This document shows, in pieces, positions 1 through 14,988 of a DNA stretch of 32,840 nt; position 1 is the first letter of the stretch, and every line of letters starts with the position of its first letter. Below the pieces are notes generated by a model. The model did no database searches. It saw only the letters and a list, made by a program, of their open reading frames with translations, and was not told where the DNA came from. Source of the stretch: a virus. The stretch is taken from positions 1 to 32,840 of IMG/VR virus record IMGVR_UViG_3300005582_000056; one strand, written 5' to 3'. The translations under genes were made by a program, and so were the position numbers.

Positions 1-2
1 TA

Positions 3-854
3 AGGAATTACAACCGCTATTTGACATCTTCGGAGTTATTAGAAACACTTGCGGACTCGGTTTCTATAAACCCCCACTACACATATAAGGAACACTCTAA
101 GGTATTAGGTGCTAGAATGGGAAAGACAATCCCTATTATACCAATAGATACTCTAAAGATATTAGAGGAGATAGAGAAACAAAAAGGTAAGATTCCTTTT
201 TCAGGCGTTAAGGATGTAGAGTGGGAAATTAATGGAGAGAACCTATCAGGCTTAATCAATCAGATTATATGGACATTATCCCCTAATGCTGCAAAACCAT
301 TAGATACATATAAGGTATTTGATTTAAATCTTTCCGCAGATTACTCCATAACTGCCATACCCGTAGAGCCATTAGATAAGGATGCGAGAGTACCTGAAGA
401 TAAACTGGCTAATAACATTAAGATAATTAACGATAGGTTAGCACAATTGAATTCCGATTTTCAATCTATTAAGGATATATTCTACTTTGGGAAGATTACA
501 CCTACCTCAACAACTAAATATACTATTCTTGCTTCCGCAGATTCGGGAGATGATATATCCGTTCAAGTGGTGAGCAAATCGTCTACCGTAGTAGATAAGC
601 AACCCCTCGTATCCACATCTCAATCCGATGCCGCCCAAGCTAAAGCAGATGATTTGGCGCAAAAGGTAGAGCAGGCTCAAACGGATTTACAAAAGAAGAT
701 TGACCAAACGGAGAACACTATTAAAACTGCTCAAGCGGGCGATACGGCCGCTCAATCGGAATTAAGAAGGCAATTACTCCAAGCACAACAAAACCTAACG
801 AATACAAACGCATCGCTCCTAAGTAGATTAAAAGCGAAAGGAATTGATATATAA
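3..854 (+). CDS. Coiled-coil phage protein, 5' end outside the window
   Basis: The reading frame is open to the first bases of the window and the only in-window initiator is a TTG at 21, so the gene probably starts upstream and about 284 residues are visible. The N-terminal half is mixed and matches no family I recognise. From about residue 200 the protein becomes Ala/Gln/Lys-rich with a heptad-like pattern, so the last 80 residues are probably a coiled coil. That fits a fibrous or scaffolding virion component. Its base composition is less AT-rich than the island that follows at 1125. A 46-residue membrane protein gene follows after 9 bases. Function unknown; virion-associated is only an inference from context. 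Confidence 0.7.
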   Translation, partial: RNYNRYLTSSELLETLADSVSINPHYTYKEHSKVLGARMGKTIPIIPIDTLKILEEIEKQKGKIPFSGVKDVEWEINGENLSGLINQIIWTLSPNAAKPLDTYKVFDLNLSADYSITAIPVEPLDKDARVPEDKLANNIKIINDRLAQLNSDFQSIKDIFYFGKITPTSTTKYTILASADSGDDISVQVVSKSSTVVDKQPLVSTSQSDAAQAKADDLAQKVEQAQTDLQKKIDQTENTIKTAQAGDTAAQSELRRQLLQAQQNLTNTNASLLSRLKAKGIDI

Positions 855-863
855 TAAAATAGT

Positions 864-1004
864 ATGAAAAGATTCGGAGATATCGCTACTATGATAACCC
901 TATTACCATTGATAATAGGAGTGGCAGTATTGGTTGGTTTATACTTTATGGTACGTTTTCCCCTATGGTGGATACAAAGAGCGTTAAAGACGAGGAAAAG
1001 GTGA
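864..1004 (+). CDS. Small single-span membrane protein (46 aa)
   Basis: A short frame starts with ATG nine bases after the previous stop and ends with TGA. Residues about 8-31 are a continuous hydrophobic stretch (ITLLPLIIGVAVLVGLYF), followed by an aromatic/basic juxtamembrane segment with two adjacent Trp and a strongly basic C-terminus (KTRKR). This is a single transmembrane helix with the positive end probably cytoplasmic. Size and charge pattern fit a small phage inner-membrane protein such as a holin or spanin accessory, but no family can be assigned. It lies in the same compositional block as the preceding gene and before the spacer that opens the accessory island. Confidence 0.55.
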   Translation: MKRFGDIATMITLLPLIIGVAVLVGLYFMVRFPLWWIQRALKTRKR

Positions 1005-1060
1005 TTAAAGTGTAACTATCAATAGGGATAACAAAAATTTTCTTTAAAAAACGACTCGTT

Positions 1061-1077
1061 CCCCCTACCCCCACCCC
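1061..1077 (+). other. C-rich tract in the spacer before the accessory island
   Basis: The 120-base non-coding spacer 1005-1124 contains CCCCCTACCCCCACCCC, three C-runs of 5, 5 and 4 in a region otherwise rich in A and T. The minus strand therefore carries three close G-runs. It could form a quadruplex-like or triplex-like structure, act as a protein-binding site, or be a recombination scar. No RNA gene or clear terminator hairpin is visible in the spacer. Confidence 0.6.
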
Positions 1078-1083
1078 AAAAAA

Positions 1084-1091
1084 TAAATTTG
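1084..1091 (+). promoter_or_regulatory. Possible -7 box of a promoter for the accessory island
   Basis: TAAATTTG matches the Bacteroidota -7 consensus TAnnTTTG and lies 33 bases before the ATG at 1125. No TTTG is present 20 bases upstream, unlike the three better promoters of this window, so the call is weak. A second partial match (TATATTG) is closer to the start codon. Confidence 0.25.
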
Positions 1092-1124
1092 TAAAAGTTA
1101 ATAATTATTAGTATATTGTAGGTT

Positions 1125-1427
1125 ATGAATATTACAGTCTTAGAGAAGTTAGAAAAAGGATGGATATCTATGGATTGGAAATCATATCTTCCAAAAGCTA
1201 ATCCGACTAAACAAAATCTTTCAGAATTAGTTGATAAGTTAGATAATTGGAAATCCAATAGAAAGTGTAAGGAGATAATATTGATTAAGTATAAGTCTAT
1301 GCCCGCTTATATAACTCTTAAACGAGAGGATTTTAAATCTATGGGTAATTGGTTGATGGGTAGATTAACCGAATTAGAAATGTATGAAGAATGTGCTAAG
1401 TTACATTCTATAAAAAATAAGTTATAA
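1125..1427 (+). CDS. Hypothetical protein (100 aa), first gene of the island
   Basis: A short basic protein starting at the ATG at 1125, the first good start after the C-rich spacer. It contains several Trp residues, a Lys-rich centre and no transmembrane segment, and it is predicted largely helical at both ends. I do not recognise a family. It ends in K-N-K-L, loosely resembling the hydrophobic tails of the island enzymes downstream. One base separates its stop from the ATG of the first oxygenase at 1429, so it is probably co-transcribed and translationally coupled with that gene and may be an accessory or regulatory partner. Confidence 0.65.
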   Translation: MNITVLEKLEKGWISMDWKSYLPKANPTKQNLSELVDKLDNWKSNRKCKEIILIKYKSMPAYITLKREDFKSMGNWLMGRLTELEMYEECAKLHSIKNKL

Positions 1428-1428
1428 T

Positions 1429-1983
1429 ATGGATAGATTGCACACAATTAAAAACTTTCTTAGTAATGAGGAATGTTCTGATATCTTACTAAAATATAAA
1501 GCAGAATTAAACTTAAAGCCAGCTGAAGTAGCTGGTAATAAGGTTACTGATAAACGGAAATCATCCGTAGCATTTATTAATGGGATAGAAGTAATAGATG
1601 AAAGGCTTAAGAATTTATTAAAGAATCTCATACAAATAAAAGGATTTGAAGTAACAGGATTAGGACCATATCAATTTACCGAATATAAAGTCGGTGAGTA
1701 TTATGATTGGCATACCGATTCATCTCCAACAGATGATTTGTATAAAGATAGATTCTGCTCTATTGTAATACAACTAAATGATGTATATGATGGTGGTTAC
1801 CTACAATTAAAAGATGAGAGTGGGGATAATACTATTCAATTAGATAAAGGTATTGGTACAATGTATATATTTTATTCAAATATAAGACATAGGGTAATGC
1901 CAGTTACCAATGGTGTAAGATATTCTTTGGTTAATTGGGTATCTCTTAGAAAATTAGATAATTTTAAAAAAACACTCATATAA
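1429..1983 (+). CDS. 2-oxoglutarate/Fe(II)-dependent oxygenase (prolyl 4-hydroxylase type)
   Basis: The 184-residue protein has the double-stranded beta-helix signature of Fe(II)/2-oxoglutarate hydroxylases. The HxD metal motif is H95-T96-D97 (YDWHTDSS), the distal metal His is H154 (RHRV) and the 2-oxoglutarate-binding Arg is R164 (GVRYSLVNWV). The core strand pattern with 'GGYLQL' is typical of the P4Hc/PKHD group, which hydroxylates prolyl or other residues in peptides or small substrates with loss of CO2 from 2-oxoglutarate. The substrate is unknown. It ends in K-K-T-L-I and overlaps the halogenase gene by one base (TAATG). It is one of five such oxygenases in the island, all clearly diverged from one another. 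Confidence 0.9.
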   Translation: MDRLHTIKNFLSNEECSDILLKYKAELNLKPAEVAGNKVTDKRKSSVAFINGIEVIDERLKNLLKNLIQIKGFEVTGLGPYQFTEYKVGEYYDWHTDSSPTDDLYKDRFCSIVIQLNDVYDGGYLQLKDESGDNTIQLDKGIGTMYIFYSNIRHRVMPVTNGVRYSLVNWVSLRKLDNFKKTLI

Positions 1984-3200
1984 TGAAGAACATTGTAATA
2001 GTTGGTGGTGGAACTGCGGGTTGGTTAAGTGCTTTCTTTTTTAAAAAAAAGTATCCAAAATATAGCATATCATTAATTGAAAGTACTTCTATTGGAATAT
2101 TGGGCGCCGGCGAAGGTGGTACTCCAAATCTACGTTCATTATTAATAGATGATTTTGGGTTCGATGAAGATGAATTTTTAGAAAAAGTAAATGGCACAAA
2201 AAAATACGGAATCATATTTGATGGTTGGCATAATAACAAAACGCATTCTTTTGTACATGGGTTTGGGTATGATGGATTAGAAAATGATTTATATTCATAT
2301 CATTTTAATGCTAGATTGTTTGCTGAATATTTAAAAGATAAAAGTATAGATAAGGGTGTTGCTCATATAGATGATGAAGTATTGAATTTTGTACAAACCA
2401 ATAACCAAATAAGTAAAATACTTCTAAAAAGTGGAAATGAAATAGAAGTTGATTTTGTTATCGATTGTTCCGGCTTTCATAGATTAGTAATTGGTAATTT
2501 ATATAATTCAAAGTGGAATTCATATGAAGATGAACTATTAGTAAATTCAGCTATCCCCTTTTTCATAAACGAACCAACCAATGATATAAAGCAACGAACA
2601 ATTGCACAAGCGATTGAATGGGGTTGGATGTGGAAAATACCTTTACAAAATAGATGGGGATGTGGATATCTTTATAATGATACAATAATAGATGATGAAT
2701 TTATTAAAAAAGAAATCGAAAGATTATATAAGGATAAAGATATACAAATAAACAAAAAAATAAAATTTAATGCCGGTTCGTATGAAGATGTGTGGGTAGA
2801 AAATTCTATTGCTATCGGATTATCTAGTGGGTTTTTAGAACCATTAGAAGCAACATCTATAATGACAATTATATTTCAGTTAAGACGATTACCCTCTGAT
2901 ATATTTGATTATTCAAATAAAGATACATACAATCATAAAATAAGGAAATGTAATTATCAAAACATGCTTTTTCTAAGACATCATTATAATTGTAGTAGAA
3001 CCGATACTATGTTTTGGAAAACATATCAGAATAAAAAATTGCCCGAATTGCTAGAAAGCATATACTCTACATTAAATAGTGGTAACATACCAATATCATA
3101 TACGTTTGGAATAGATAACGATACTATAACATTTACAAAAGAGCAATATAAGCACATTTTCTACAATAACTTTTTAAAGAAAGAAAAGACTCTTATATGA
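1983..3200 (+). CDS. Flavin-dependent tryptophan-halogenase-like protein
   Basis: 405 residues with the hallmarks of FAD-dependent tryptophan halogenases (PrnA/RebH group). These are the N-terminal dinucleotide fold GGGTAGW (residues 8-14), the second FAD loop GAGEGGTP (41-48), a Lys aligned with the catalytic lysine in T-K-K-Y-G-I (K74), the diagnostic WxWxIP motif at 215-220, and the conserved G-F-L-E-P-L-E-A-T-S segment at 283-292. Known members use FADH2, O2 and chloride or bromide to make hypohalous acid and halogenate Trp, peptide-bound Trp or other aromatics. This protein is about 100 residues shorter than typical free-Trp halogenases, which mainly trims the C-terminal substrate-binding part, so its substrate may differ. 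It overlaps the next gene by ATGA and ends K-T-L-I. Confidence 0.92.
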   Translation: MKNIVIVGGGTAGWLSAFFFKKKYPKYSISLIESTSIGILGAGEGGTPNLRSLLIDDFGFDEDEFLEKVNGTKKYGIIFDGWHNNKTHSFVHGFGYDGLENDLYSYHFNARLFAEYLKDKSIDKGVAHIDDEVLNFVQTNNQISKILLKSGNEIEVDFVIDCSGFHRLVIGNLYNSKWNSYEDELLVNSAIPFFINEPTNDIKQRTIAQAIEWGWMWKIPLQNRWGCGYLYNDTIIDDEFIKKEIERLYKDKDIQINKKIKFNAGSYEDVWVENSIAIGLSSGFLEPLEATSIMTIIFQLRRLPSDIFDYSNKDTYNHKIRKCNYQNMLFLRHHYNCSRTDTMFWKTYQNKKLPELLESIYSTLNSGNIPISYTFGIDNDTITFTKEQYKHIFYNNFLKKEKTLI

Positions 3201-3838
3201 ACAACATAAAAGAAATAGAATTTAGTCCTACATTATCCATATGGAAATCTAAATTTGATGTATCAAATAAAGATAAAATATTATCAGAGTGCGAAGAACT
3301 TATAAAAAATAAACCAAAAGTAAACACAGATGGTTATGCTTACTATATAAATAACGGACTAAAATACAATGGTTATGTTGATATAGAAATAAAAAAAGAA
3401 TTAGATTCAATTATGTGTAGTGGAATAAACGCATGTATCGATATACACAATCAAAAATTTAATGAAATAAAAACAGATGTTTGGGTAAACGTTGTTAGAG
3501 CACAAAATCCGGTACAAAAAAATTATAAAACAAATGGTTCGTTAGTATTTCATAACCACGTTGAATTAAATATATTAAATAAATTACCGCCTCCACTTTA
3601 TACATTTGTTTGTTACATACAAATGCCAGATAATTTATTGGGAGATGATGCTGTATTATTTATGGAAGATGTTGATAAATCGGTATTTTCAATACTACCA
3701 GATGAGGGTGATATATTAATTATGAAAGGAGATTTACCTCACGTACCAAATTATTCTCCCAATTCTACAAAAGATAGAGTTGTTTTAGCTGGCAGTATAA
3801 GAATGGATTTTTCTAAATTAAACAAAAGCTTAATATGA
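3197..3838 (+). CDS. 2-oxoglutarate/Fe(II) oxygenase-like protein (phage type)
   Basis: 213 residues resembling the 'putative 2OG-Fe(II) oxygenase' family common in phages. Candidate metal ligands are H119 or H121 in F-H-N-H-V-E and H182 in L-P-H-V-P, with R194 (KDRVVLAGSIRMDF) as the 2-oxoglutarate anchor. 'DEGDILIMKGDLPH' fits the strand leading to the distal His. The first ligand motif is HxH-V-E rather than the usual HxD, so metal binding should be viewed with some caution. The gene overlaps both neighbours by 4 bases (ATGA), implying translational coupling. It ends in N-K-S-L-I like its neighbours. Confidence 0.8.
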   Translation: MNNIKEIEFSPTLSIWKSKFDVSNKDKILSECEELIKNKPKVNTDGYAYYINNGLKYNGYVDIEIKKELDSIMCSGINACIDIHNQKFNEIKTDVWVNVVRAQNPVQKNYKTNGSLVFHNHVELNILNKLPPPLYTFVCYIQMPDNLLGDDAVLFMEDVDKSVFSILPDEGDILIMKGDLPHVPNYSPNSTKDRVVLAGSIRMDFSKLNKSLI

Positions 3839-4452
3839 TTGAAAAAATATATGTTTTTGATGATATAATAACTAACGAAGAACAAGATGAAATGCTTCAG
3901 TTTGTCAAAACAACAAACATGGAATGGACTTTTGAAAAAAATATAACGGGAAAGTATGGTAACAAAGATGATAAATTTTATCCAGCAAACGTTTTACCAA
4001 AAATTAGATTAAATAATCATCAGATAGATACGTTAATAACCAAAATACAATATAATGCAGTTCAAAAATTAAATCTAAAGTTTATTGAAAATTATAGATA
4101 CAAAATAAATTGGACAAAACCATTAGGATTTGAATATGATGTTAAAGATTTAATGCATGTAGATAGTGATATACAACATATAGCAATGGTTTATTATATT
4201 AACGATACCACAGGAAATACATTTATATATGATAATATTGATGGTAATAATGTTGAAATAAATTCTAAATATAGATACAACGATATTGATTATTCTAAAT
4301 TAACTTTAACAAAAAGTATTGAACCAAAACAGGGTAGGGTAGTGGTTTTTAATGGAGCGTTACATCACCATGGTTCTTATCCTAAAACAAACGATAGATA
4401 CATAATAAATTTTAATTTTGTTGCAAAAGAAAAAAGTAAATCTTTATTATAA
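3835..4452 (+). CDS. 2-oxoglutarate/Fe(II)-dependent oxygenase
   Basis: The 205-residue protein carries H108-V-D110 (MHVDSD), a strand 'HIAMVYYINDTTGNTFIY', a distal His within H177-H178-H179-G-S-Y, and R188 in N-D-R-Y-I-I-N-F. This is the usual facial triad plus 2-oxoglutarate Arg. It is a hydroxylase-like enzyme of the P4Hc superfamily, distinct from the two upstream copies in spacing and N-terminus. The substrate cannot be read from the sequence. It overlaps the upstream gene by 4 bases and the sulfotransferase gene by one base (TAATG), and ends K-S-L-L. Confidence 0.85.
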   Translation: MIEKIYVFDDIITNEEQDEMLQFVKTTNMEWTFEKNITGKYGNKDDKFYPANVLPKIRLNNHQIDTLITKIQYNAVQKLNLKFIENYRYKINWTKPLGFEYDVKDLMHVDSDIQHIAMVYYINDTTGNTFIYDNIDGNNVEINSKYRYNDIDYSKLTLTKSIEPKQGRVVVFNGALHHHGSYPKTNDRYIINFNFVAKEKSKSLL

Positions 4453-5177
4453 TGTTAATAGAAAATAAATTCATTTATCTAAATTTACCAAGATGCGCAT
4501 CAACATCTTTCCACATAGCTTGTCTTAAATATGGATTGGATATTAAATACTATGATGATATATTTCATACATTAAATCCTCCTAAAATAGATAAGAATGC
4601 TAATAATGAGATAATAGCAGATAGTTTAACACATTCACACGAAAGGTTATTTAATTTAAAGAAAAAGTTTGGAAAAGATGTTCCTGTTATTGCTGTTAAA
4701 CGTAATCCATACGATAGGTATATATCTTTATGGAAACACATAATAGATGAATTGTATAGGGTTGGTGAGATGGAAACATTCGAAATATTTAAATCACTTA
4801 CGACAGATGATTTACTATCATATACCGAATTAGATTTATCTTCCAATGATACTAAATATCCAGCTATTAATAAGTTTTTTAAAAGGAATGGTGTTCCTAA
4901 AACAGTACCATATGTAACTGCTATGATATATATAATGATGAGTCCAACTTCACATTATCACAACCACGATAAATCAATAATTTGGTTTGATATAAAAAAA
5001 TTGAATGAATTAGAAGAATGGGTTTCTAAAAAATTAGAATTTGATTTTAAATTAGAGAAAACAAATTCAAGTCAACATTTTGAATGTACTATTATAAATG
5101 ATGAATATTTTAGAAAAAAATATGATTCTATTTATAAAAATTATGATAGCCCAAAAAATATCAAATCTTTAATATGA
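4452..5177 (+). CDS. Sulfotransferase-like protein
   Basis: 241 residues with the two nucleotide-binding elements of PAPS-dependent sulfotransferases. The 5'-phosphosulfate loop is L-P-R-C-A-S-T-S (residues 12-19), right after the first beta-strand. The 3'-phosphate motif is K-R-N-P-Y-D-R-Y-I-S (R84 to S92). Known relatives transfer sulfate from 3'-phosphoadenylyl sulfate to hydroxyls of sugars, lipids or tyrosine. The acceptor here is unknown, and no PAPS-synthesis gene is seen in the window, so the donor would come from the host. It is coupled to the oxygenase before it and to a Cys-rich small protein after it by ATGA, and ends I-K-S-L-I. Confidence 0.85.
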   Translation: MLIENKFIYLNLPRCASTSFHIACLKYGLDIKYYDDIFHTLNPPKIDKNANNEIIADSLTHSHERLFNLKKKFGKDVPVIAVKRNPYDRYISLWKHIIDELYRVGEMETFEIFKSLTTDDLLSYTELDLSSNDTKYPAINKFFKRNGVPKTVPYVTAMIYIMMSPTSHYHNHDKSIIWFDIKKLNELEEWVSKKLEFDFKLEKTNSSQHFECTIINDEYFRKKYDSIYKNYDSPKNIKSLI

Positions 5178-5461
5178 TTAATTTTAAAGAAATATTTGTA
5201 GCTTGGCAAACCGCAGCAAGACCAACTCCATTCCAATCTAAAGTTGCTAAAGACCGTTTAGATGTATGTATTAAATGTCCGTTTAAAAAAGAAATCTTTG
5301 AAAAGAAACAATGGTCAGCTGTTTGTGGGAAATGTGGATGCCCGTTAAAAGCAAAAATATTTTCTCAAGAAGTAAACCCATGTCCTATGGGATATTGGAA
5401 TGAGCCTGATAAAAAGAATAGTATAGGTTTTAAATTAAAGGATAAAAAAACTTTTTTATAG
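5174..5461 (+). CDS. Small zinc-ribbon-like Cys-rich protein (95 aa)
   Basis: Six cysteines are arranged as C32-x2-C35, C51-x2-C54-x-C56 and C70 (CIKCPFKK, CGKCGCPLKAK, CPMGYW). This suggests one structural zinc site of rubredoxin or zinc-ribbon type plus extra thiols. The pattern C-G-K-C-G-C-P-L and the C-P-x-G-x-W ending recur in small uncharacterised phage proteins I recall from large marine phages, but no function is established. It may be a nucleic-acid-binding or protein-binding adaptor. It starts inside the stop codon of the sulfotransferase and ends K-K-T-F-L. A candidate late promoter follows directly, so it closes the first transcription block of the island. Confidence 0.75.
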   Translation: MINFKEIFVAWQTAARPTPFQSKVAKDRLDVCIKCPFKKEIFEKKQWSAVCGKCGCPLKAKIFSQEVNPCPMGYWNEPDKKNSIGFKLKDKKTFL

Positions 5462-5466
5462 AAATT

Positions 5467-5484
5467 GGATATTTATAATAAACA
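5467..5484 (+). promoter_or_regulatory. Candidate late promoter element, copy 1
   Basis: GGATATTTATAATAAACA lies 12 bases before the ATG at 5497. An identical 18-mer is found at 27508-27525 before the giant tail gene, and a variant at 32810-32828. Both exact copies occupy short intergenic gaps directly upstream of a start codon, which argues for a regulatory rather than a coding origin. Recognition by the gp55-like sigma factor encoded at 16174 is an inference. Confidence 0.55.
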
Positions 5485-5496
5485 TTAAATAAAGAT

Positions 5497-6984
5497 ATGA
5501 AAGGAACTATTATTGGCACTGACCTATTACAAAAGGGAAACGATGTACAGGTTATAGAAATAAATACAAACACTACTATATTCAATGATGGTGCTAATTT
5601 ATTAGATTATGATGCTCTTTTTGAGGTATTAAATTCTAATAACATAGAAGAATTGCACTTTATCTATACCGCTGGAAGTAGCTTTTTACCAACAAACGCT
5701 AGTTCTTTTGTATTTGAAGATAAGTTAAAAGAAAAATGTTTAGAGAACAATATAACATATCACAATTATGTAGTACCTCAAAACTCTGTTACCGTACCTT
5801 ACATAGAAGATGCACCAAACAAATTTATTTTAAGACAAGCATTTGATACAACCGCATTAGTTGATGATACATATTGTGCTAATAAGTACGAATTTATTAA
5901 TCTTATGAGTGGTTCTGGTATAGTTCCTAAAACATTTTTTAATGATGAAGTTTTGGGTGTTGATGAAATATCTGTTGTAGATTTGAACAACCCAAATCAT
6001 CCAAACTATGTTGTAAAAGCTAAAATCCCAACCTATGATATAACTTCTTATCCAGAACTTTATGAGTTAGGTACTCAGGAAGAATTGGATACATTAAAAC
6101 AATCTATTCCTTCTGATTATTTATTGCAAGAGTTTATATATGATGAGGAAAATATAGTAGATGGTAGATGGTCTGTAATAAGAAGTATTGATATTATATA
6201 TGGTGGTGAGCTTGATGTTATTAATATGGGAGGATATACCCAAACAACAATTATACCATTAACTTTTTCGGTTAACGAATTTGTAGAAAATACTAAAAAG
6301 TACAATCAAAAAACGAGATATAAATACATTAATAAACAATTATATAATACATCTAAAATAGATTTCCACGTAGATGATGAAACACAAATTTTATCATACG
6401 ATGGTACATTGGCTGATGTAGACACTATTCAGTTAGGTTCTTTTATTAAATCATTAGATTTTACCGATTTAGATGGAAGGTCACCAAATGATGCAGAAGA
6501 TATAACTGCTTTTGGATGGGATGGTACATTAGCAAAAACAATTGAAACGCTTACTGAAGTTTCCTCTTCGCTTGTGGGAATGCAATCCGCATCTGTTGAT
6601 ACAATATACATAAGAATTACATTAGAAAATGGTTTAATGTGGGATGATGCTCCATCTGCAACCTATTACTTTGAAGAAGTTAATTCATTATCTACTAGAT
6701 GGGATAGAGTGAACAATATGGTTGTTGGCGATAAATTAGTTGTAAGAAATAATTCTACAAATGAATTAGAAACTGTTGAGATAACTAATTTAGAAATGGT
6801 ACATGCACAAAAAACAATATATCAATTAGATTATGAACCATCGGATATTTTCTTAGTTGATATTGGCGATGGATTGTTTGGATTGATGCACAACGCATGT
6901 TGGTGTTGTTATAACCCATGCGGGCATTGGTGTTGTGATGGTGGTTGTCCAACGTGTGACCAAGGCCTTCCCCCAAAACTTTAA
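5497..6984 (+). CDS. Hint-domain (intein-like) protein with Cys-rich C-terminal tail
   Basis: Three parts can be read in this 495-residue protein. Residues 1-285 start with a short alpha/beta segment (G-T-D-L-L and I-E-I-N-T-N) and resemble ATP-grasp-like proteins I recall from phages, a tentative call. Residues about 290-466 look like a Hint domain: D-E-T-Q-I-L-S-Y-D-G at the start, V-G-D-K-L-V in the middle, then I-Y-Q-L-D-Y-E-P-S-D-I-F-L-V and a terminal M-H-N (His465-Asn466), the residues that cyclise Asn in inteins. Residues 467-495 are a tail with eight Cys. The usual first Cys/Ser nucleophile appears to be His291, so full splicing is unlikely, while Asn-driven C-terminal cleavage remains possible. 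It lacks the K-x-S-L-I tail of its neighbours and is preceded by a candidate late promoter. Confidence 0.7.
   Translation: MKGTIIGTDLLQKGNDVQVIEINTNTTIFNDGANLLDYDALFEVLNSNNIEELHFIYTAGSSFLPTNASSFVFEDKLKEKCLENNITYHNYVVPQNSVTVPYIEDAPNKFILRQAFDTTALVDDTYCANKYEFINLMSGSGIVPKTFFNDEVLGVDEISVVDLNNPNHPNYVVKAKIPTYDITSYPELYELGTQEELDTLKQSIPSDYLLQEFIYDEENIVDGRWSVIRSIDIIYGGELDVINMGGYTQTTIIPLTFSVNEFVENTKKYNQKTRYKYINKQLYNTSKIDFHVDDETQILSYDGTLADVDTIQLGSFIKSLDFTDLDGRSPNDAEDITAFGWDGTLAKTIETLTEVSSSLVGMQSASVDTIYIRITLENGLMWDDAPSATYYFEEVNSLSTRWDRVNNMVVGDKLVVRNNSTNELETVEITNLEMVHAQKTIYQLDYEPSDIFLVDIGDGLFGLMHNACWCCYNPCGHWCCDGGCPTCDQGLPPKL
6895..6981 (+). other. Cys-rich 29-residue tail after the Hint His-Asn
   Basis: The tail holds eight cysteines in 29 residues, including two tandem W-C-C-x-x-x-C units (W-C-C-Y-N-P-C and W-C-C-D-G-G-C) and a final C-P-T-C. 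It could bind zinc or iron, form disulfides, or be a releasable peptide if Asn466 cyclises. It contains two Trp, one Tyr, Pro, Asn and Asp, so it has plausible target residues for the island's modifying enzymes. This part is composition and position only; release is not shown. Confidence 0.6.
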
Positions 6985-7015
6985 TTAAAATAAAAAAATA
7001 TAAATAATAATTAAT

Positions 7016-7156
7016 ATGTCACAAAATAATAGAGTAGAAAGACCGGCAACAACAATTAAATCAATTGTAAGTCCTTTAACTGTAGATACCAAAGTTAAGA
7101 TTGCGGCAGCTTTTCAATTAATTGTAAATAAAATTAAGGAAAAGCATTTATCATAA
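7016..7156 (+). CDS. Small hypothetical protein (46 aa)
   Basis: The ATG at 7016 opens a 46-residue frame (starting M-S-Q-N-N-R-V-E-R-P) that ends at the TAA at 7154-7156. It sits between the Hint protein and the first SGNH gene, with 31 and 16 bases of spacing. The N-terminal half is polar with Pro and Thr. The second half (V-K-I-A-A-A-F-Q-L-I-V-N-K-I) can form an amphipathic helix. It has no Cys or transmembrane segment. I recognise no family. Its position suits a small partner protein or a modified peptide, but nothing in the sequence decides this. It is co-oriented with its neighbours and probably transcribed from the promoter at 5467. Confidence 0.5.
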   Translation: MSQNNRVERPATTIKSIVSPLTVDTKVKIAAAFQLIVNKIKEKHLS

Positions 7157-7172
7157 TTCTAATTTATGAGTT

Positions 7173-8000
7173 ATGAAATTGTTTACATTTGGGGATAGTT
7201 GGACAGAAGGCGTTGGTGGAGATTTAGGAGAAGAATTTACAACAAACAGTCCAGAAGAAAAAACTAAAATTAGGCAAAAATACTGCTGGCCAAAATATCT
7301 ATCTGATTTATTGAAAATAGAATTCCAAAACTTTGGAATGGGTGGTGCATCAAATAAGGTTATATTTGATGCAACTTGTCACGCTATACACAATAACATA
7401 ATTAAAAAAGATGATATTGTTGTAGTTATGTGGAGTTCATCTTTGAGAGATAATGTACCATTTTTTCCATCAAATAATCCTTGGCACTTTTGGGGAGAGA
7501 CTTCTATAAGAAAAAAACACATATATGGATTTATATTAGATAAAACACATTTTACTAAATCCGATAATCAATCATCCTTAAAAAAAGAATACAAAGAATA
7601 TTTTATAGATAATCTATTTTCAGAAACGTATTATGATATTATAAATCAAAATTATATTTTATATATCCAATATATGTTTGATAGAATTGGTATTCGTTAT
7701 GTTTTTTGCGATGCGTTTGATTTGATGATAAAAAAAGAAATAATAAAAGAGGTTGATAAAACAAATTTAATAAAAACAAACCACTATTGGGGATTATCGG
7801 ATAAAACGATAAAAAACTTTTTGATAAGTAAAAATAGAAAAGATGTTTGGGAAGATGGAAACCTATGGAGTGATAATATTACAGGTAAGCATCCTAATAA
7901 AATTGGATATGAACTAATTGCAAATATGTTATATGATTATATTTTAGAAAAAGATATATTATACTATAATACAAACGAAATAGAAAATAGAATAATATGA
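7173..8000 (+). CDS. SGNH/GDSL hydrolase-like protein, copy 1
   Basis: 275 residues. Block I of SGNH hydrolases is clear at the N-terminus (F-G-D-S-W-T-E-G, nucleophile S9). It is followed by a block II/III-like G-M-G-G-A-S-N and a C-terminal block V around H240 (G-K-H-P-N-K-I-G-Y-E). Members are esterases, acyl or acetyl hydrolases, or sugar O-acetyl transferases. In phages this fold often removes acetyl groups from glycans. There is no signal peptide. Its end overlaps the next oxygenase gene by ATGA, an arrangement repeated by the second SGNH gene at 10066 and its oxygenase. It ends N-R-I-I. Confidence 0.8.
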   Translation: MKLFTFGDSWTEGVGGDLGEEFTTNSPEEKTKIRQKYCWPKYLSDLLKIEFQNFGMGGASNKVIFDATCHAIHNNIIKKDDIVVVMWSSSLRDNVPFFPSNNPWHFWGETSIRKKHIYGFILDKTHFTKSDNQSSLKKEYKEYFIDNLFSETYYDIINQNYILYIQYMFDRIGIRYVFCDAFDLMIKKEIIKEVDKTNLIKTNHYWGLSDKTIKNFLISKNRKDVWEDGNLWSDNITGKHPNKIGYELIANMLYDYILEKDILYYNTNEIENRII

Positions 8001-8518
8001 AATATGCAATAAACACTTTTTTTAAAAAGAAAGAATGTGATGATATAATAGATTTTTGTATGAAAGAAGGTGAATCTTTCAATTATAATCCAAATGAAGT
8101 TTGGGATTGTAGGCGTGTGTATGATGAATCATTTAAAAAATATATTTTAGAAAAAATATTAGAAGTAGAAAAATTTGAATTATTTAATGTAAGAAATATA
8201 AATGTTAGTCTAACAAAATATTATGATTCAAGACGTTTAGATTTACACTTAGATAGTACATCTAATTATACCACTGTTATTTGTTTGAGTGATAATTTTG
8301 AAGATGGAAGATTTGTACTATCAGAAAAGCAGTGTAGTTTAAACGATGCTGATGTAAAAATAAAATTATCTTTGGGAGAAGGTATTACTTTTGAGGGTAA
8401 TAAAATTTATCACGGAGTTATGCCTGTATATACAGGATTAAGATGTGCGTTAAACATATGGATGAATGATAGTGATTTTAATTATTATAAATTAGATACA
8501 AAGAAAAAATTATTATGA
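7997..8518 (+). CDS. 2-oxoglutarate/Fe(II)-dependent oxygenase
   Basis: The 173-residue protein has H84-L-D86 (LHLDST), distal H139 in Y-H-G-V-M-P-V, and R149 in G-L-R-C-A-L-N-I-W-M, the complete metal and co-substrate set. The C-terminal pattern H-x-V-x-P-V-x-x-G-x-R is shared with the first oxygenase of the island (1429), so these two are the closest pair. The reaction is presumably hydroxylation of an unknown substrate. It is translationally coupled to the SGNH gene before it and to the small sulfotransferase-like gene after it by 4-base overlaps. Tail: K-K-K-L-L. Confidence 0.88.
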   Translation: MKYAINTFFKKKECDDIIDFCMKEGESFNYNPNEVWDCRRVYDESFKKYILEKILEVEKFELFNVRNINVSLTKYYDSRRLDLHLDSTSNYTTVICLSDNFEDGRFVLSEKQCSLNDADVKIKLSLGEGITFEGNKIYHGVMPVYTGLRCALNIWMNDSDFNYYKLDTKKKLL

Positions 8519-8997
8519 AGATACTAATAATTTCTTTACCTAGAACAGGCTCTACATCTTTATTGTACAAAATAGCTAACGAGAAGAATTTAAAACCATT
8601 TTTTGAACCATTTGATGGGACTAATAGAGTTATTTATAATAATGAAGATAATTCCGTTGTTAAAACAATAATATGTCATCATAAAAATAATTTAGAACTT
8701 ATTAGTAAATTTGATGAGGTTATACTTCTTAATAGAAGAAATCTAAAAGAGTTAATAGAGTCACACTCATATCAAACTTATTTTTCAAAAAAAGGATATA
8801 ATTCTAATAATCCATATGTTTATAAAGAGCCACCGCAAGAAATAATAAATTTGTGTACATCTGATATATTAAATTGGAATGAAGAAATTAAATACCTATC
8901 GGAAATTGCTAAAATACCAATTACATATTATGAAGATATTTTTGATAGTAATTCATCAGATAGATTAAGAATATCAATAACTAATAAATTAATTTAA
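8515..8997 (+). CDS. Short sulfotransferase-like protein
   Basis: 160 residues. The P-loop-like start I-S-L-P-R-T-G-S-T-S (residues 6-15) is the 5'-phosphosulfate-binding loop of sulfotransferases, and E-V-I-L-L-N-R-R-N fits the 3'-phosphate strand. The protein is much shorter than the 241-residue copy at 4452 and shares only these core motifs with it. The lost part is the variable acceptor-binding region, so it may be a minimal or specialised enzyme, or another P-loop kinase-like member. It ends T-N-K-L-I and overlaps the radical SAM gene by one base (TAATG). Confidence 0.7.
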   Translation: MKILIISLPRTGSTSLLYKIANEKNLKPFFEPFDGTNRVIYNNEDNSVVKTIICHHKNNLELISKFDEVILLNRRNLKELIESHSYQTYFSKKGYNSNNPYVYKEPPQEIINLCTSDILNWNEEIKYLSEIAKIPITYYEDIFDSNSSDRLRISITNKLI

Positions 8998-10061
8998 TGG
9001 TTGATTTAAAAAATTACATATGTAGTGTTCCATTTGAGGCATTAGAAATAATGGATAAGAAAAACTATATGTGTTGCGCAAGTTGGTTATTAAAAGAGTT
9101 ACCAAACAAAGTACCACTAAAAGATTTATGGAATTCCGATGAAGCAATAGAGATACGAAAATCAGTATCGAATGGTTCATACAAACATTGTGATAAAACA
9201 CAGTGTCCATTTTTAGCGCAATTAATAAATTTTAATCTACAATCATCAGGCCCAATACAACATATAAATAATGTATCTGAAAATATTAAGAAACATATAG
9301 ATTCAGATAACTTTTATATGGAATCAGGTCCTAAAATTTTACAAATGTCATTTGATAGAACCTGCAATTACAAATGTCCATCGTGTAGAGTGGATATGAT
9401 AGTAGCAAATACAAATGAAATAAAAAGCATTAATCTAAAGATAGATGAGATGGAAGAAACTTTTTCAGAATCCATCGAAACTATTTATTGTTCGGGCACA
9501 GCAGACCCATTTGCATCGGTATCTTATAGGAATTTTCTAAGAAACTTTAATCCAACAAAATATCCAAAATTAAAGAATATACATATTCATACTAATGCGA
9601 GTTTATGGAATAAAGAGATGTGGGATTCTATGCCGAACATACATAATTATGTTACTACTTGCGAAATTAGTATTGATGCTGCTACTCAAAATACATACGA
9701 AAATATAACTAGATTAGGTGGTAATTGGGATAATTTATTATCTAATTTAAAATTTATAAGCACAATACTCACATTAAGAAAAGTAAAAACATCATTCGTT
9801 GTTCAACAATCAAACTATAAAGAAATGGCTTTGTTTTTAGAAATAATGCAATCCATTTTTAAACAAAAAACAAAAGTATTTTTTGGAAAAATAAATAATT
9901 GGGGAACGTTTGATTCACATATGTTTGAGTTGTTAAAAATATGGGATAGTAATCATCCAGAGCATAAAGAATTTTTAAATGAGTTGAAAAAGGTTGCTAC
10001 AAACCCATATGTGTTTCATAATATGCACGATTTATTGGAATCTAAAAAATCTATCATTTAA
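8997..10061 (+). CDS. Radical SAM protein with N-terminal Cys motif (SPASM-like)
   Basis: The 354-residue protein carries the radical SAM iron-sulfur signature C123-x3-C127-x2-C130 (R-T-C-N-Y-K-C-P-S-C) at the start of a TIM-barrel-like region. A first 80-residue segment has its own cysteines (Y-M-C-C-A-S-W and C-D-K-T-Q-C-P-F), resembling the auxiliary-cluster (SPASM/twitch) region of peptide- or substrate-modifying enzymes, here placed before rather than after the core. Radical SAM/SPASM proteins often modify ribosomal peptides or sugars. The substrate is unknown. It ends K-K-S-I-I. A second SGNH gene begins 4 bases after its stop. Confidence 0.88.
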   Translation: MVDLKNYICSVPFEALEIMDKKNYMCCASWLLKELPNKVPLKDLWNSDEAIEIRKSVSNGSYKHCDKTQCPFLAQLINFNLQSSGPIQHINNVSENIKKHIDSDNFYMESGPKILQMSFDRTCNYKCPSCRVDMIVANTNEIKSINLKIDEMEETFSESIETIYCSGTADPFASVSYRNFLRNFNPTKYPKLKNIHIHTNASLWNKEMWDSMPNIHNYVTTCEISIDAATQNTYENITRLGGNWDNLLSNLKFISTILTLRKVKTSFVVQQSNYKEMALFLEIMQSIFKQKTKVFFGKINNWGTFDSHMFELLKIWDSNHPEHKEFLNELKKVATNPYVFHNMHDLLESKKSII

Positions 10062-10065
10062 TTAT

Positions 10066-10689
10066 ATGAAGGCAAATCTTTATGTGTGTGGTGATAGTTT
10101 TGTAGATTGGGATTTACCAGAAACACATTGGATAGATTATTTATCCAATCATTATAATGTTATTAAATTAGGTAAATATGGTTCTGATAATCATTCCATA
10201 ATATATCAAACGGGTAGTATTCCAAAATATAAAGATGGCGATAGAATTGTAATAGTTTTTACTGCGCCAGGTAGATTTCCAAGAAGATATTTTGGTGAAA
10301 GAGAAACAAATCATAATGTAAAATATTTGAATTGGGAATGGTATAAAGATAAATCATTTGCTAAAAAACTTTTAGAATTGAGGATATCAGAAACAGAATA
10401 TTGGTTAAATGGTGTTAGAAATAATGAAATATTTTTTATTAAAAAATTAAAAACATTTTATGAAGAATATAATCCCGTATTTGTAACATGGAGCGATGAT
10501 TTTCATAAAATGACTTCAGATTTTGTTGAATTGATAAAAGTAACATCCATAGCAGATGAAGGAGGTGAAAAAACAGATTGGCATCCTGGTTGGCATGGAT
10601 GTTATTGCTTTTATGAAAAATTATATTATTTATTAGGTATAAAAGATGATATAATACCATACAATAGAAAAGTAAACAAAATATTATGA
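10066..10689 (+). CDS. SGNH/GDSL hydrolase-like protein, copy 2
   Basis: The start is set at the ATG at 10066, just after the radical SAM stop. The longer frame from 9994 would overlap that gene by 68 bases and adds an unsupported leader. The 207-residue product begins with block I (Y-V-C-G-D-S-F, S11), has G-S-D-N as a block III-like Asn, and ends with a D-W-H-P-G-W-H segment (D171 and H173) fitting the catalytic Asp-x-x-His block. It is shorter and clearly diverged from the copy at 7173. Like that copy, it is coupled by ATGA to a following 2-oxoglutarate oxygenase. Tail: V-N-K-I-L. Confidence 0.72.
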   Translation: MKANLYVCGDSFVDWDLPETHWIDYLSNHYNVIKLGKYGSDNHSIIYQTGSIPKYKDGDRIVIVFTAPGRFPRRYFGERETNHNVKYLNWEWYKDKSFAKKLLELRISETEYWLNGVRNNEIFFIKKLKTFYEEYNPVFVTWSDDFHKMTSDFVELIKVTSIADEGGEKTDWHPGWHGCYCFYEKLYYLLGIKDDIIPYNRKVNKIL

Positions 10690-11204
10690 TACTATCAATT
10701 GATGAGTTTTACTTTTTAAAATCAGAATTAGAAAAAACACCAATTCTTACAAACTATGAGTTGAAATTCATAAAATCAGCACATCCACAATTATATTATA
10801 CTACTATAAATAAAAAAGATGATAGTGTAGCTTTGTTTACTGAAAAATCTTTTATTTATTCTTTACAAAATAAAAATTTGAACGAATTCATTTGTCAAAA
10901 GTTCGAAGAACCCTTAGAGAATTTATATATGATTCATAGATTATTATATGGTGTTTCTGGCTTTGCAAAAGCACATAAAGATAGGTTCACTACACATAAA
11001 ACAATAAGTTTAATTTTATCAGATGAGTTTACAGGCGGCGATATGTATATAAATGATGAAAAGATAAATTTAAACAAAAATAGAGAATATGTTATTTTTA
11101 ATGGTGGAAAAGATTTGCACGAAGTTAAACCGATTATAACGGGCGTTAGAGATGTACTTATAGTTTGGTTTTCCAAAAAACAATCAAAATTTAGCATAAT
11201 TTAA
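10686..11204 (+). CDS. 2-oxoglutarate/Fe(II)-dependent oxygenase
   Basis: 172 residues with H97-K-D99 (AHKDRFTTHKTISLIL), G-G-D-M-Y-I in the central strand, distal H145 (L-H-E-V-K-P) and R155 (G-V-R-D-V-L-I-V-W-F). This is the full set for a P4Hc-type hydroxylase. It is the last gene of the accessory island and ends S-K-F-S-I-I although no overlapping gene follows, so that tail is not forced by a start-codon overlap. A Bacteroidota-type promoter begins at its stop codon and drives the next, unrelated block. Confidence 0.88.
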   Translation: MILSIDEFYFLKSELEKTPILTNYELKFIKSAHPQLYYTTINKKDDSVALFTEKSFIYSLQNKNLNEFICQKFEEPLENLYMIHRLLYGVSGFAKAHKDRFTTHKTISLILSDEFTGGDMYINDEKINLNKNREYVIFNGGKDLHEVKPIITGVRDVLIVWFSKKQSKFSII

Positions 11205-11205
11205 A

Positions 11206-11237
11206 TTTGGTTTTTTAAAAAAAAATTGTTACATTTG
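11206..11237 (+). promoter_or_regulatory. Bacteroidota-type promoter (TTTG-N20-TAnnTTTG)
   Basis: TTTG at 11206-11209 and TACATTTG at 11230-11237 are separated by 20 bases, matching the -33/-7 boxes of the Bacteroidota housekeeping sigma factor. Counting four bases from the -7 box puts the transcript start near 11241, the A of the next gene's ATG, so the mRNA may be leaderless. Two more promoters with the same spacer lie at 11565 and 13670. Confidence 0.7.
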
Positions 11238-11240
11238 AGT

Positions 11241-11564
11241 ATGATTATAGTACCAGAAACTCCAATAACAGACGTTAGTTTCACAAAGTGGAATCCGTGC
11301 ATCAAAATAGAAGTCAAAGATGAATCCTTAGAGGATACATTCCATTATTACATCATACCCCTCATCGATGTATCACAGCAAGAATTAGAGAATAATTTGG
11401 AATCTATACCATCATTATGGTCATCGGAATCTACTGAATTCGAGTCGGAGGAGGGAATCACACTATATACTATGCGGCTATTTGATGAAGATATGCCAGA
11501 ATTAACCACAGAAGAGGAAGTTGAGATACTTTATAAAATTTTAACGAAAAAAGACCTATATTAA
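11241..11564 (+). CDS. Acidic hypothetical protein (107 aa)
   Basis: The ATG at 11241 is chosen. An in-frame TTG at 11226 lies inside the promoter and would not be transcribed. The product is strongly acidic in its C-terminal half (E-F-E-S-E-E and E-L-T-T-E-E-E-V-E). It has alternating strands near residues 25-45 and no membrane segment or recognised motif. Acidic small phage proteins are sometimes DNA mimics or regulators, but that is only a possibility here. It is expressed from its own promoter and followed by another promoter, so it is probably monocistronic, perhaps an early gene. Confidence 0.7.
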   Translation: MIIVPETPITDVSFTKWNPCIKIEVKDESLEDTFHYYIIPLIDVSQQELENNLESIPSLWSSESTEFESEEGITLYTMRLFDEDMPELTTEEEVEILYKILTKKDLY

Positions 11565-11596
11565 TTTGGAAATTTGAAAAAATTTTTGTATATTTG
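11565..11596 (+). promoter_or_regulatory. Bacteroidota-type promoter for the HD-domain gene
   Basis: TTTG at 11565-11568, a 20-base spacer and TATATTTG at 11589-11596. The predicted start near 11600 leaves a leader of about 76 bases before the ATG at 11676. The leader is A-rich near the start codon, as usual for translation in this phylum, and shows no clear riboswitch structure. Confidence 0.72.
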
Positions 11597-11675
11597 AGGT
11601 ATCTTTTTATTATTACTATATAGCAGACAGCACAGAAGCACTAAAAGATTAAAATAAAACTTAAAAAATCAAAGT

Positions 11676-12323
11676 ATGAAACAAAAGACAGAAAAGGAAC
11701 TGAAAGACAATTACGAGAAGTTTATTGCCGTTATCAAAAAGTATTTTACAGGGGATAGGTTAGAAAAACTTCTTTTTATGTATTCCGAAGAAGAATTAGG
11801 ACCAAATCTTGCAATTGCTCCAGCTAGTGGTAATGCCGGATATCATAACTGTTATACGGGTGGTTACATAGACCATATTTTTAATGTTTGTAAAAATTCA
11901 CTTAAAGTTAAAGAATTATTTATTCAGTTAGGTGGTAAAGTAGATTTTACAGATGAAGAATTAATATTCGTAGCATTACATCACGATTTAGGAAAGCTAG
12001 GAACTAAGGGTAAACCATACTATACACCAAATCCTTCGGATTGGCACATTAAGAATCAGGGTAAAGTATATACTGCTAACCCAGAATTACATCATATGAC
12101 TCATACTGATAGAACTATATTTGTTTTACAACAATATGGTATAACTTTTTCAGAAGCTGAATATTTTGGTATGAAATTAACCGATGGATTATACGATGAA
12201 GATAACATGAAATATTTAAAGGTGTTTGATATTAGTAAAAGAATGAAGTATAAAATCCCTTATATAATGCATTGGGCAGACCATATGAGTACAGTGATAG
12301 AATCCCAAAATAACGAAATATAA
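11676..12323 (+). CDS. HD-domain phosphohydrolase
   Basis: The 215-residue protein carries the HD-superfamily metal set. There is an early His in G-Y-I-D-H-I-F-N-V, the central L-H-H-D-L-G-K-L-G motif (H102, H103, D104), and later His/Asp residues (H-H-M-T-H-T-D and H-W-A-D-H). HD enzymes hydrolyse nucleotides, (p)ppGpp, cyclic nucleotides or other phosphoesters. Phage examples are often nucleotidases or counter-defence enzymes. The length is typical for a single-domain member. It has its own promoter, and its transcript ends at an intrinsic terminator 14 bases after the stop. Confidence 0.85.
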   Translation: MKQKTEKELKDNYEKFIAVIKKYFTGDRLEKLLFMYSEEELGPNLAIAPASGNAGYHNCYTGGYIDHIFNVCKNSLKVKELFIQLGGKVDFTDEELIFVALHHDLGKLGTKGKPYYTPNPSDWHIKNQGKVYTANPELHHMTHTDRTIFVLQQYGITFSEAEYFGMKLTDGLYDEDNMKYLKVFDISKRMKYKIPYIMHWADHMSTVIESQNNEI

Positions 12324-13724: not shown

Positions 13725-14669
13725 ATGAATTTAGGTTACGCATGTATTAATATGACGATGGGTAAAAAAGTTACCACAAATCGTACTATGGTTAAACGTA
13801 CTTTCAATGAGAAAGGTTTGGATTATGTATCCGAACTCGCATTACTCAATGCAAAAGATGTTATTCGAATATTAGAATGGAATAGATTAAATGGTATTAG
13901 TTTATTTCGTTTATCATCTGCTCTTATCCCTTGGGGTGATAATATTGATATTACTCAACTAAAAGATTACAAAGAAATCAAATCAGAGTTGAAAAAAGCA
14001 GGTGATTACGCTAAATTTTGGAATATGCGTATTAATTCACACCCAGGTCCATTTAATGTATTGGTTTCACCATCGGAATCGGTTGTAGAAAAAACTATCG
14101 CTGATTTAGAATTACATGGTAAGGTTTTTGATATGATGGGATTATCTAAAACTCCATACAATAACATTAATATCCATTGTAATGGTGTTTACGGAGATAA
14201 AAAAGCAGCAATGGATAGATTTATCAAAAACTTCCAAAGACTCTCTAAATCAGTTCAAAGTAGGCTTACAATTGAGAATGATGATAAGGCTTCTATGTAT
14301 AGCGTTAAAGACTTAATGTATATTTACGAAAAAATTGGTATTCCAATCGTATTCGACTATCATCATCACCAATTTTGTACAGGCGATTTATCGGAAGAGC
14401 AAGCACTTAAACTTGCAGCAACTACTTGGCCTAAAAACATTAAGCAAGAGGTTCATTATTCCGAATCAAAAGCATTACACGAAAATAATCCAAAAGAAAA
14501 ACCACAAGCTCACTCACTTTATATTAACGCATTACCAAATACCTACGGATTAGATTTGGATGTTATGGTAGAAGCAAAAGCAAAAGAGTTAGCTATATTA
14601 CCTTATTTAAAAAAAGAATTAAATGAAAAAGTACGCATTGTTCATAGGAAGATGGCAGAATTGGCATAA
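13725..14669 (+). CDS. uvsE: UV damage endonuclease (UvdE/UvsE family)
   Basis: The 314-residue TIM-barrel protein begins L-G-Y-A-C-I-N and shows the succession of metal-binding segments of UV-damage endonucleases: R-L-S-S-A-L-I-P-W, R-I-N-S-H-P-G-P-F, N-I-N-I-H-C-N-G-V-Y-G, L-T-I-E-N-D-D and I-V-F-D-Y-H-H-H-Q-F. The family nicks DNA immediately 5' of UV photoproducts and some other lesions, using a trinuclear metal site. Full family length is about 300, so the gene is intact. It probably repairs phage DNA during infection of a sunlit host, an inference. Its 3' end overlaps the next gene by 47 bases. Confidence 0.9.
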   Translation: MNLGYACINMTMGKKVTTNRTMVKRTFNEKGLDYVSELALLNAKDVIRILEWNRLNGISLFRLSSALIPWGDNIDITQLKDYKEIKSELKKAGDYAKFWNMRINSHPGPFNVLVSPSESVVEKTIADLELHGKVFDMMGLSKTPYNNINIHCNGVYGDKKAAMDRFIKNFQRLSKSVQSRLTIENDDKASMYSVKDLMYIYEKIGIPIVFDYHHHQFCTGDLSEEQALKLAATTWPKNIKQEVHYSESKALHENNPKEKPQAHSLYINALPNTYGLDLDVMVEAKAKELAILPYLKKELNEKVRIVHRKMAELA

Positions 14670-14988
14670 TGGACATGAATGGTTAATCCGCCAACAAATG
14701 GATAAAGGAAAGAATGTTTGGGTTGCAATTAGAGATGTTCAGAAAGATGAGAACAATCCTAAATCAGCACAAGAAGTTTTAACAATGTTACAAAATGAAC
14801 CATTCTTTCAACAAAATTGGGATAAATTATTTGTATCAATTATTCCCGATATTGAATCGGTAAACTATGGTAGAGGAGTTGGATATGAAGTAATATATCA
14901 CGAACCACCAAACGAAATTGCTGAAATAAGCGGAACTAAAATTAGAAAAGGAGAAATAGATGCCACTGGTAAAACGACACATAGCTAA
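14623..14988 (+). CDS. Nucleotidyltransferase, NMNAT/cytidylyltransferase type
   Basis: 121 residues with the two signatures of the HxGH nucleotidyltransferase superfamily: G-R-W-Q-N-W-H-N-G-H (HxGH) after the first strand and I-S-G-T-K-I-R-K (ISTxIR) near the C-terminus. Nicotinamide-nucleotide adenylyltransferases have the same layout, so a role in NAD salvage is most likely, although 121 residues is short for that family. The ATG at 14623 is supported because the Rossmann start (Y-A-L-F-I-G-R-W) follows directly. It lies inside the end of the UV endonuclease gene. The 3' end overlaps the DUF2061-like gene by 29 bases. Confidence 0.8.
   Translation: MKKYALFIGRWQNWHNGHEWLIRQQMDKGKNVWVAIRDVQKDENNPKSAQEVLTMLQNEPFFQQNWDKLFVSIIPDIESVNYGRGVGYEVIYHEPPNEIAEISGTKIRKGEIDATGKTTHS

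Follow-up and report, generated by a model that had tools for sequence, protein, structure and literature searches.

A phage gene island in which unrelated tailoring enzymes share one C-terminal tag around a Hint-domain carrier protein

The IMG/VR record IMGVR_UViG_3300005582_000056 of an uncultured phage, analysed over its full 32,840 bases (the window), contains an island of modifying-enzyme genes at 1429-11204. All island genes lie on the plus strand, and neighbours mostly overlap by 1-4 nucleotides (nt). A reading made from the letters alone (the sequence-only reading) had placed here five 2-oxoglutarate (2OG) oxygenases, a flavin halogenase, two sulfotransferase-like proteins, two SGNH proteins and one radical S-adenosylmethionine (SAM) protein, co-oriented around a Hint-domain protein. 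Searches with Pfam, PHROG and NCBIfam models, together with motif inspection, confirmed this inventory and its common orientation. Three features go beyond that reading: a common C-terminal tag, a Cys-rich protein of 95 amino acids (aa; 5174-5461) and a conserved 46-aa open reading frame (ORF; 7016-7156). The Hint gene (5497-6984, plus strand) encodes what we call the carrier, with an ATP-grasp-like region (residues 1 to about 285), a Hint region (about 290-466) and a Cys-rich tail (467-495). For comparison, about 50 non-redundant related IMG/VR islands were used, including L005 (48 kb record) and L006 (237 kb record). These relatives rest on the best 80 of 114 radical SAM relatives, and the family is larger than described here.

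Reading of the translations revealed that all 12 genes around the carrier gene share one C-terminal motif, which the carrier itself lacks. Across the related islands, 282 distinct tagged proteins gave the consensus K-x-x-[KN]-[TS]-L-I-COOH. A single operon can hold a dozen or more unrelated modifying enzymes with this tag (about K-T-L-I); its bearers fall into 37 sequence clusters and are in many cases enzymes without relation to one another. With a tag profile that left out each protein's own family, the 12 island genes of the window scored 3.3-11.8, and the other 23 scored window genes, carrier included, reached at most 3.3 and were mostly negative. At the internal dimer rate, such a dimer would close 12 of 12 genes by chance with a probability of 1.5e-14. 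The L005 and L006 islands showed the same pattern as the window; in the 237-kb record, all ten non-Hint genes of the island proper and at least one gene just upstream are tagged, against a background of a few per cent under a stricter pattern and 25/267 under a looser one. The radical SAM relatives are tagged in 50/51 cases. Fibre and glycosyltransferase genes adjoining the islands are untagged. Inheritance of the tag within a single family was ruled out by the number of clusters and by the leave-one-family-out profile.

Coding of the tag is varied: Leu is encoded by TTA, TTG, CTA, CTT, CTC and CTG, Thr by four codons, and Ser by both of its codon families. The last genes of islands retain the tag where the next gene lies 21-263 nt off or on the opposite strand, and the final island gene of the window (10686-11204) is tagged with no downstream gene overlapping it. 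Because the codons vary synonymously and the tag persists where no gene follows, the tag was taken as a protein-level feature; on the same observations, a translation-coupling artefact was rejected as its source. Formally, the tag has the pattern of a class I PDZ ligand ([ST]-x-hydrophobic-COOH); a search for a PDZ receptor returned no PF00595 match in five phage records. In L034, L035 and L037, which have divergent carriers, several unrelated proteins end in -LF. To judge by their sequences, these endings in the L034 lineage suggest a tag co-evolving with a phage-encoded receptor.

The carrier was modelled with AlphaFold on an alignment of 49 relatives, giving a predicted local distance difference test score (pLDDT) of 84.7 with only residues 468-495 disordered; five close relatives alone gave a pLDDT of 36. 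Foldseek aligned the Hint region to Hedgehog (1at0, 2.8e-8) and to the RecA intein, and a hidden Markov model (HMM) search matched it to the KlbA intein (1e-5). At the level of the predicted structure, this confirmed a Hint fold at about 290-466, as the sequence-only reading had assigned. The region closes with the C-terminal Hint motif His465-Asn466 (6889-6894, plus strand), invariant in 49/49 sequences; cleavage is predicted after Asn466, and the predicted disorder starts right behind this residue. Both Cys1/Ser1 and the block B TxxH are absent (position 1 is His and block B reads DAPSATYYF in the window), and for this reason the carrier was not classed as a splicing intein. The lost Cys1 and TxxH, taken with the invariant His465-Asn466, point to a domain that would perform C-terminal cleavage only. 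His-Asn is likewise the end of type A bacterial intein-like domains, which give mainly cleavage products (PMC4031507).

The N-terminal domain of the carrier is probably a circularly permuted ATP-grasp-like domain whose metal-binding hairpin (GTDLL...IEINTN) is shifted to the front. Its order of elements is ATP-grasp-like, with invariant ExN, R and K residues (E21, N23, R113, K174 and R229) and the ExN hairpin at the N-terminus. Its sole Pfam signal was a sub-threshold match of residues 1-30 to RimK 139-168, and the permuted carrier profile was collinear with RimK over 201 columns, which was not significant. Neither the domain by itself nor a permuted version of it gave any match in HMM searches of the PDB, and its hhalign comparison with E. 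coli RimK/GshB was not significant. The carrier is present in 26/26 radical SAM loci with enough flank and is single-copy per record in the six records checked. Among the relatives, L086:3179-5911 (also L089 and L097) has a carrier with four tandem Hint domains and L099:12216-14063 one with two, the domains following one another almost or entirely without linkers. L012:1099-2757 (118253-118798 of the 237-kb contig) holds a second Hint domain that looks canonical (Cys1, TxxHP, HN), within a putative virion protein that has a lectin-like region after the Hint domain.

Directly after the HN motif lies the hypervariable Cys-rich tail ACWCCYNPCGHWCCDGGCPTCDQGLPPKL (6895-6981, plus strand), the putative core peptide. 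Its two Trp and one Tyr had been pointed out in the sequence-only reading, and eight Cys accompany them. Among 50 non-redundant carriers, tails of 25-49 aa follow HN immediately, with six Cys in 35, eight in 13, seven in one and nine in one. They are about 20% Cys and rich in Gly, Pro, Ser, Tyr and Trp, and they diverge faster than the leader (identity of 0.63 versus 0.85 in the 80-90% bin). Directly 3' of the carrier gene, the window has the conserved small ORF MSQNNRVERPATTIKSIVSPLTVDTKVKIAAAFQLIVNKIKEKHLS (7016-7156, plus strand, 46 aa); an ORF of 25-51 aa occupies this place in 54/55 loci. These products are divergent yet alignable and look helical by eye, and they are candidates for a carrier partner or a tag reader. 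Almost every island has the carrier and the small ORF; the radical SAM and 95-aa proteins are frequent, and the halogenase is optional.

The enzyme genes, all on the plus strand, begin with a 2OG-Fe(II) oxygenase (1429-1983; Pfam 2OG-FeII_Oxy_3, 3.9e-16; tag KKTLI) and a PrnA-like flavin-dependent tryptophan halogenase (1983-3200; Pfam Trp_halogenase, 4.8e-89; tag EKTLI). The halogenase matched PrnA at 1.3e-56 and keeps GGGTAGW, the position of PrnA Lys79, WMWKIP and FLEPLE; like PrnA, it has the GxGxxG and WxWxIP motifs and the catalytic Lys and Glu of flavin-dependent halogenases. It is followed by a divergent 2OG-Fe(II) oxygenase of 213 aa (3197-3838; PHROG_81, 2.7e-6; tag NKSLI), which had no Pfam match, shows H-V-[DE]...H...R in the alignment and was seen in the closest islands only, at the sensitivity of the scan used. 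Another 2OG-Fe(II) oxygenase (3835-4452; Pfam, 4.2e-6; tag SKSLL), a sulfotransferase (4452-5177; Pfam Sulfotransfer_2, 1.2e-6; tag IKSLI) and the 95-aa Cys-rich, zinc-ribbon-like protein (5174-5461; PHROG_13558, a family of unknown function, 2e-7; tag KKTFL) complete the part upstream of the carrier. The 95-aa protein recurs across islands with 36 tagged members, and its gene keeps the tag though 35 nt separate its end from the next gene.

Downstream of the small ORF lie genes for a 275-aa SGNH/GDSL hydrolase-like protein (7173-8000; Pfam Lipase_GDSL, 6.6e-5, at the cut-off; tag ENRII), a 2OG-Fe(II) oxygenase (7997-8518; Pfam, 1.8e-6; tag KKKLL) and a small sulfotransferase-like protein of 160 aa (8515-8997; tag TNKLI), the last recognised by a P-loop-like SLPRTGSTSL motif alone, with no Pfam match. 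They are followed by an N-terminal-twitch radical SAM protein (8997-10061; NCBIfam NF033640, 8e-14; CNYKCPSC motif; tag KKSII), the partner recovered most widely among the islands. A second SGNH-like protein of 207 aa (10066-10689, the longest ORF beginning at 9994; tag VNKIL) shows GDS and related motifs alone, with no Pfam match, and the final gene encodes a 2OG-Fe(II) oxygenase (10686-11204; Pfam, 1.3e-4; tag KFSII). The oxygenases at 1429-1983, 3835-4452 and 7997-8518 are above the Pfam cut-off; the final one falls just under it (23.3 bits versus 27), with HxD...H...R present. The 213-aa oxygenase, the 160-aa sulfotransferase-like protein and the second SGNH protein are weaker calls, resting on motifs or weak PHROG matches. 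Tagged SET methyltransferases, FkbM methyltransferases and GT25-like proteins occur in the islands of other phages.

Possible supply genes adjoin some islands. An adenosine 5'-phosphosulfate (APS) kinase lies beside the L005 island (L005:2693-3151; NCBIfam apsK, 6e-19), with look-alikes, by sequence only, in L006, L029 and L036. A gene resembling nicotinamide mononucleotide (NMN) adenylyltransferase is conserved in the window (14623-14988), L005, L006, L029 and L036. A role of these neighbours in 3'-phosphoadenosine 5'-phosphosulfate (PAPS) or cofactor supply is possible, and the L005 APS kinase fits PAPS supply for the sulfotransferases.

The sequence-only reading had proposed asking whether the halogenase and the Hint-tail gene always occur together. 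For the halogenase family as a whole they do not, a result which that reading had listed as counting against its proposal: 78 isolate phages, mostly cyanophages, have the family without the Hint gene. The tagged form is island-bound, with tags on 18/18 halogenases inside islands and on 0/12 fetched from outside, and on this basis only the tagged form was assigned to the system. The oxygenase/halogenase cluster of HTVC008M contains no tagged gene.

Based on these results, we propose that the carrier is a precursor whose folded leader, the ATP-grasp-like and Hint domains, would display the short, fast-evolving Cys-rich tail as its core. The shared tag would recruit the neighbouring tailoring enzymes; the simplest candidates for its receptor are the carrier, itself untagged, and the 46-aa partner protein. 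Enzymes docked in this way could add hydroxyl, halogen or sulfate groups to the core or cross-link it, and the Hint domain, with His-Asn in place and no N-terminal cleavage residues, would free the finished peptide by Asn cyclisation. The product might act as an effector, inside the infected cell or in its surroundings, or it might decorate the virion. On balance, it seems somewhat probable that the island is a phage-encoded system similar to those for ribosomally synthesized and post-translationally modified peptides (RiPPs), with the tail as core, recruitment by tag and release by Hint. The bolder reading sees here a novel type of assembly line for modifying peptides, so far observed in phages only, in which unrelated enzymes join by acquiring one tag read by a self-cleaving carrier, a circularly permuted ATP-grasp-Hint protein. 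It is held more tentatively, its chances falling a little short of even; the same caution applies to its corollary that the enzymes are freely exchangeable while the hypervariable core diversifies.

Several features agree with the RiPP-like reading. The 49-member alignment and the identity comparison showed, the tail-less clade excepted, a ribosomally made precursor whose leader is conserved and whose core varies, and tailoring enzymes are co-encoded. Pfam and NCBIfam models identified neither a RiPP leader recognition element nor a dedicated leader protease in the scanned window and representative island proteins; the tag and the Hint domain may replace them. That the tail is a common substrate, as the sequence-only reading had suggested, has become far likelier with the carrier found at every radical SAM locus with sufficient flank and with its tail Cys-rich and fast-evolving, though it is a prediction and a tail-less clade keeps its tagged enzymes.

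Other observations weigh against this reading. The carriers of L086 and L097 have three additional canonical Hint domains and those of L099 and L101 one; they end in LVHNK and have no Cys-rich tail. These tail-less clades keep tagged neighbours, with a looser tag in L099 and L101, and either they modify something else or the Hint array stands in for the tail. One point in favour is weakened as well: at least two Trp are present in the tail of every halogenase island (13/13 complete, 17/17 overall), and 8/16 complete islands without halogenase have no tail Trp (Fisher p = 0.003), but this correlation, only consistent with the tail as substrate, tracks carrier clades and is confounded by phylogeny. 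The carrier Hint domain lacks the His at block F:13, without which some inteins manage (PMC4031507). The ATP-grasp call is drawn from motifs and topology, the RimK matches being sub-threshold and the profile comparison not significant. Sulfotransferase, SGNH and glycosyltransferase-like partners are also types that act on glycans.

The tail-less clades keep a serious, if on the whole unlikely, rival in play: the tagged enzymes would act on virion fibres or on glycans of the host surface, with the tag targeting them to the assembly site or virion, and the Cys-rich tail would be a disulfide or metal-binding module rather than their substrate. Some islands adjoin giant fibre genes (L005) and glycosyltransferase-like genes, ST241 weakly matches a galactose-3-O-sulfotransferase PHROG, tagged FkbM methyltransferases and GT25-like proteins exist, and so do carriers without a tail. 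However, the tag co-occurs with the carrier and is missing from the adjoining fibres and glycosyltransferases themselves, and a variable tail that follows a Hint HN and in most cases has an even number of Cys would be odd for a mere structural module. An alternative that we judge improbable makes the tag a degron, read by host ClpXP or a tail-specific protease, by which all tailoring enzymes would be removed together at a set time. ClpX recognises the C-terminus of MuA, and basic-then-aliphatic C-termini such as the tag resemble it; a host-encoded reader is also conceivable given the fit to a PDZ ligand and the lack of a PDZ match in the five phage records. Yet the tag is confined to the genes of this operon while other phage genes lack it, and the -LF endings on unrelated proteins of the L034 lineage suggest a phage partner rather than a fixed host protease.

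RimK- and R2K-type ATP-grasp enzymes work on protein carboxylates (PMC4431377), and the ATP-grasp-like domain could likewise activate the tag carboxylate, so that each enzyme would be covalently joined with the carrier or with an amine. The exactly C-terminal position of the tag and the five invariant residues of the domain speak for such a ligation, but the ATP-grasp identity is probable and the activity predicted, and we regard this explanation as quite improbable. Hardly any weight is left for common gene ends that act as a nucleic-acid signal, in translation coupling or as a promoter, instead of as a protein tag. Many island genes do overlap by 1 or 4 nt, and AT-rich DNA abounds in codons for K, L and I; against this stand the synonymous codons, the tags of genes followed by none or by one on the other strand, and similarly overlapping window genes elsewhere that lack the tag, by which this rival is largely refuted.

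The proposed system resembles RiPPs with protein-like leaders (proteusins and the nitrile-hydratase type) in that a large, conserved leader and a short, variable core make up one ribosomally made precursor, and in clustering radical SAM, hydroxylating and other tailoring enzymes with that precursor. It differs in a leader made of ATP-grasp-like and Hint domains with no separate protease seen, and in phage-encoded enzymes that carry their own C-terminal address tag; here the modification is predicted. A Hint domain ending in His-Asn before a variable C-terminal segment is also seen in PT-HINT polymorphic toxins and type A bacterial intein-like domains, but the carrier lacks Cys/Ser1 and TxxH, its tail is a Cys-rich peptide of 25-49 aa, and its neighbours are tailoring enzymes instead of the immunity genes of PT-HINT toxins. 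As with encapsulin and microcompartment cargo peptides, a short terminal peptide is common to unrelated enzymes that must meet; unlike in encapsulin systems, the tag runs across one operon and 37 clusters, and no shell or encapsulin gene was noticed near the islands, for which no specific search was made. The cyanophage flavin halogenases and 2OG oxygenase clusters (VirX1, HTVC008M, S-PM2) represent, in T4-like phages, families homologous to those of the islands, with up to 39% identity for the halogenase, but those fetched lack the tag, the carrier and the small ORF.

No carrier relatives were found in 50,697 isolate phage records, save Hint-only matches, or in 84,980 bacterial and archaeal genomes, and the carrier matched no Pfam, PHROG or PDB family beyond Hint. 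A survey of the literature on phage-encoded RiPPs, with subscription journals and preprints outside its coverage, found no comparable system. The single enzymes are of known kinds; as far as tested, the combination of an operon-wide tag with a putatively self-cleaving carrier is new. The convergence of enzymes from 37 clusters on one tag in one operon would represent a general plug-in logic for enzyme recruitment, and as far as we searched it has no description in the searchable literature. Should the tag serve to dock enzymes on the carrier, tailoring pathways could be built with it as a portable handle of 4-5 residues, and modified peptides could be made on a self-releasing leader. Large uncultured phages would then produce their own halogenated, hydroxylated or sulfated peptides, raising the testable question of what natural-product chemistry does during phage infection.

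Family searches placed typical phage genes around the island, namely gp25- and gp6-like baseplate proteins, UvdE and peptide deformylase. The nearest isolates for the gp6-like protein were Microcystis phage Mel-JY01 (42%) and Flavobacterium phage immuto (39%). Shine-Dalgarno-like sites precede 2/32 window genes versus 17/27 in HTVC008M; such scarcity is also seen in Bacteroidota and their phages and would be in keeping with a host from this group. PADLOC reported no defence system, with just a generic viperin-like radical SAM match and a weak generic 2OG match, and Rfam gave no match in window positions 1-12000. Outside the island, a NodU/NolO-like carbamoyltransferase (PHROG_1601; 16869-18566) is untagged. 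Just 3' of the island, an HD-domain-like gene (11676-12323) ends in QNNEI in the window and in QDNII, QDNVI or QDNLL in relatives, possibly a marginal form of the tag.

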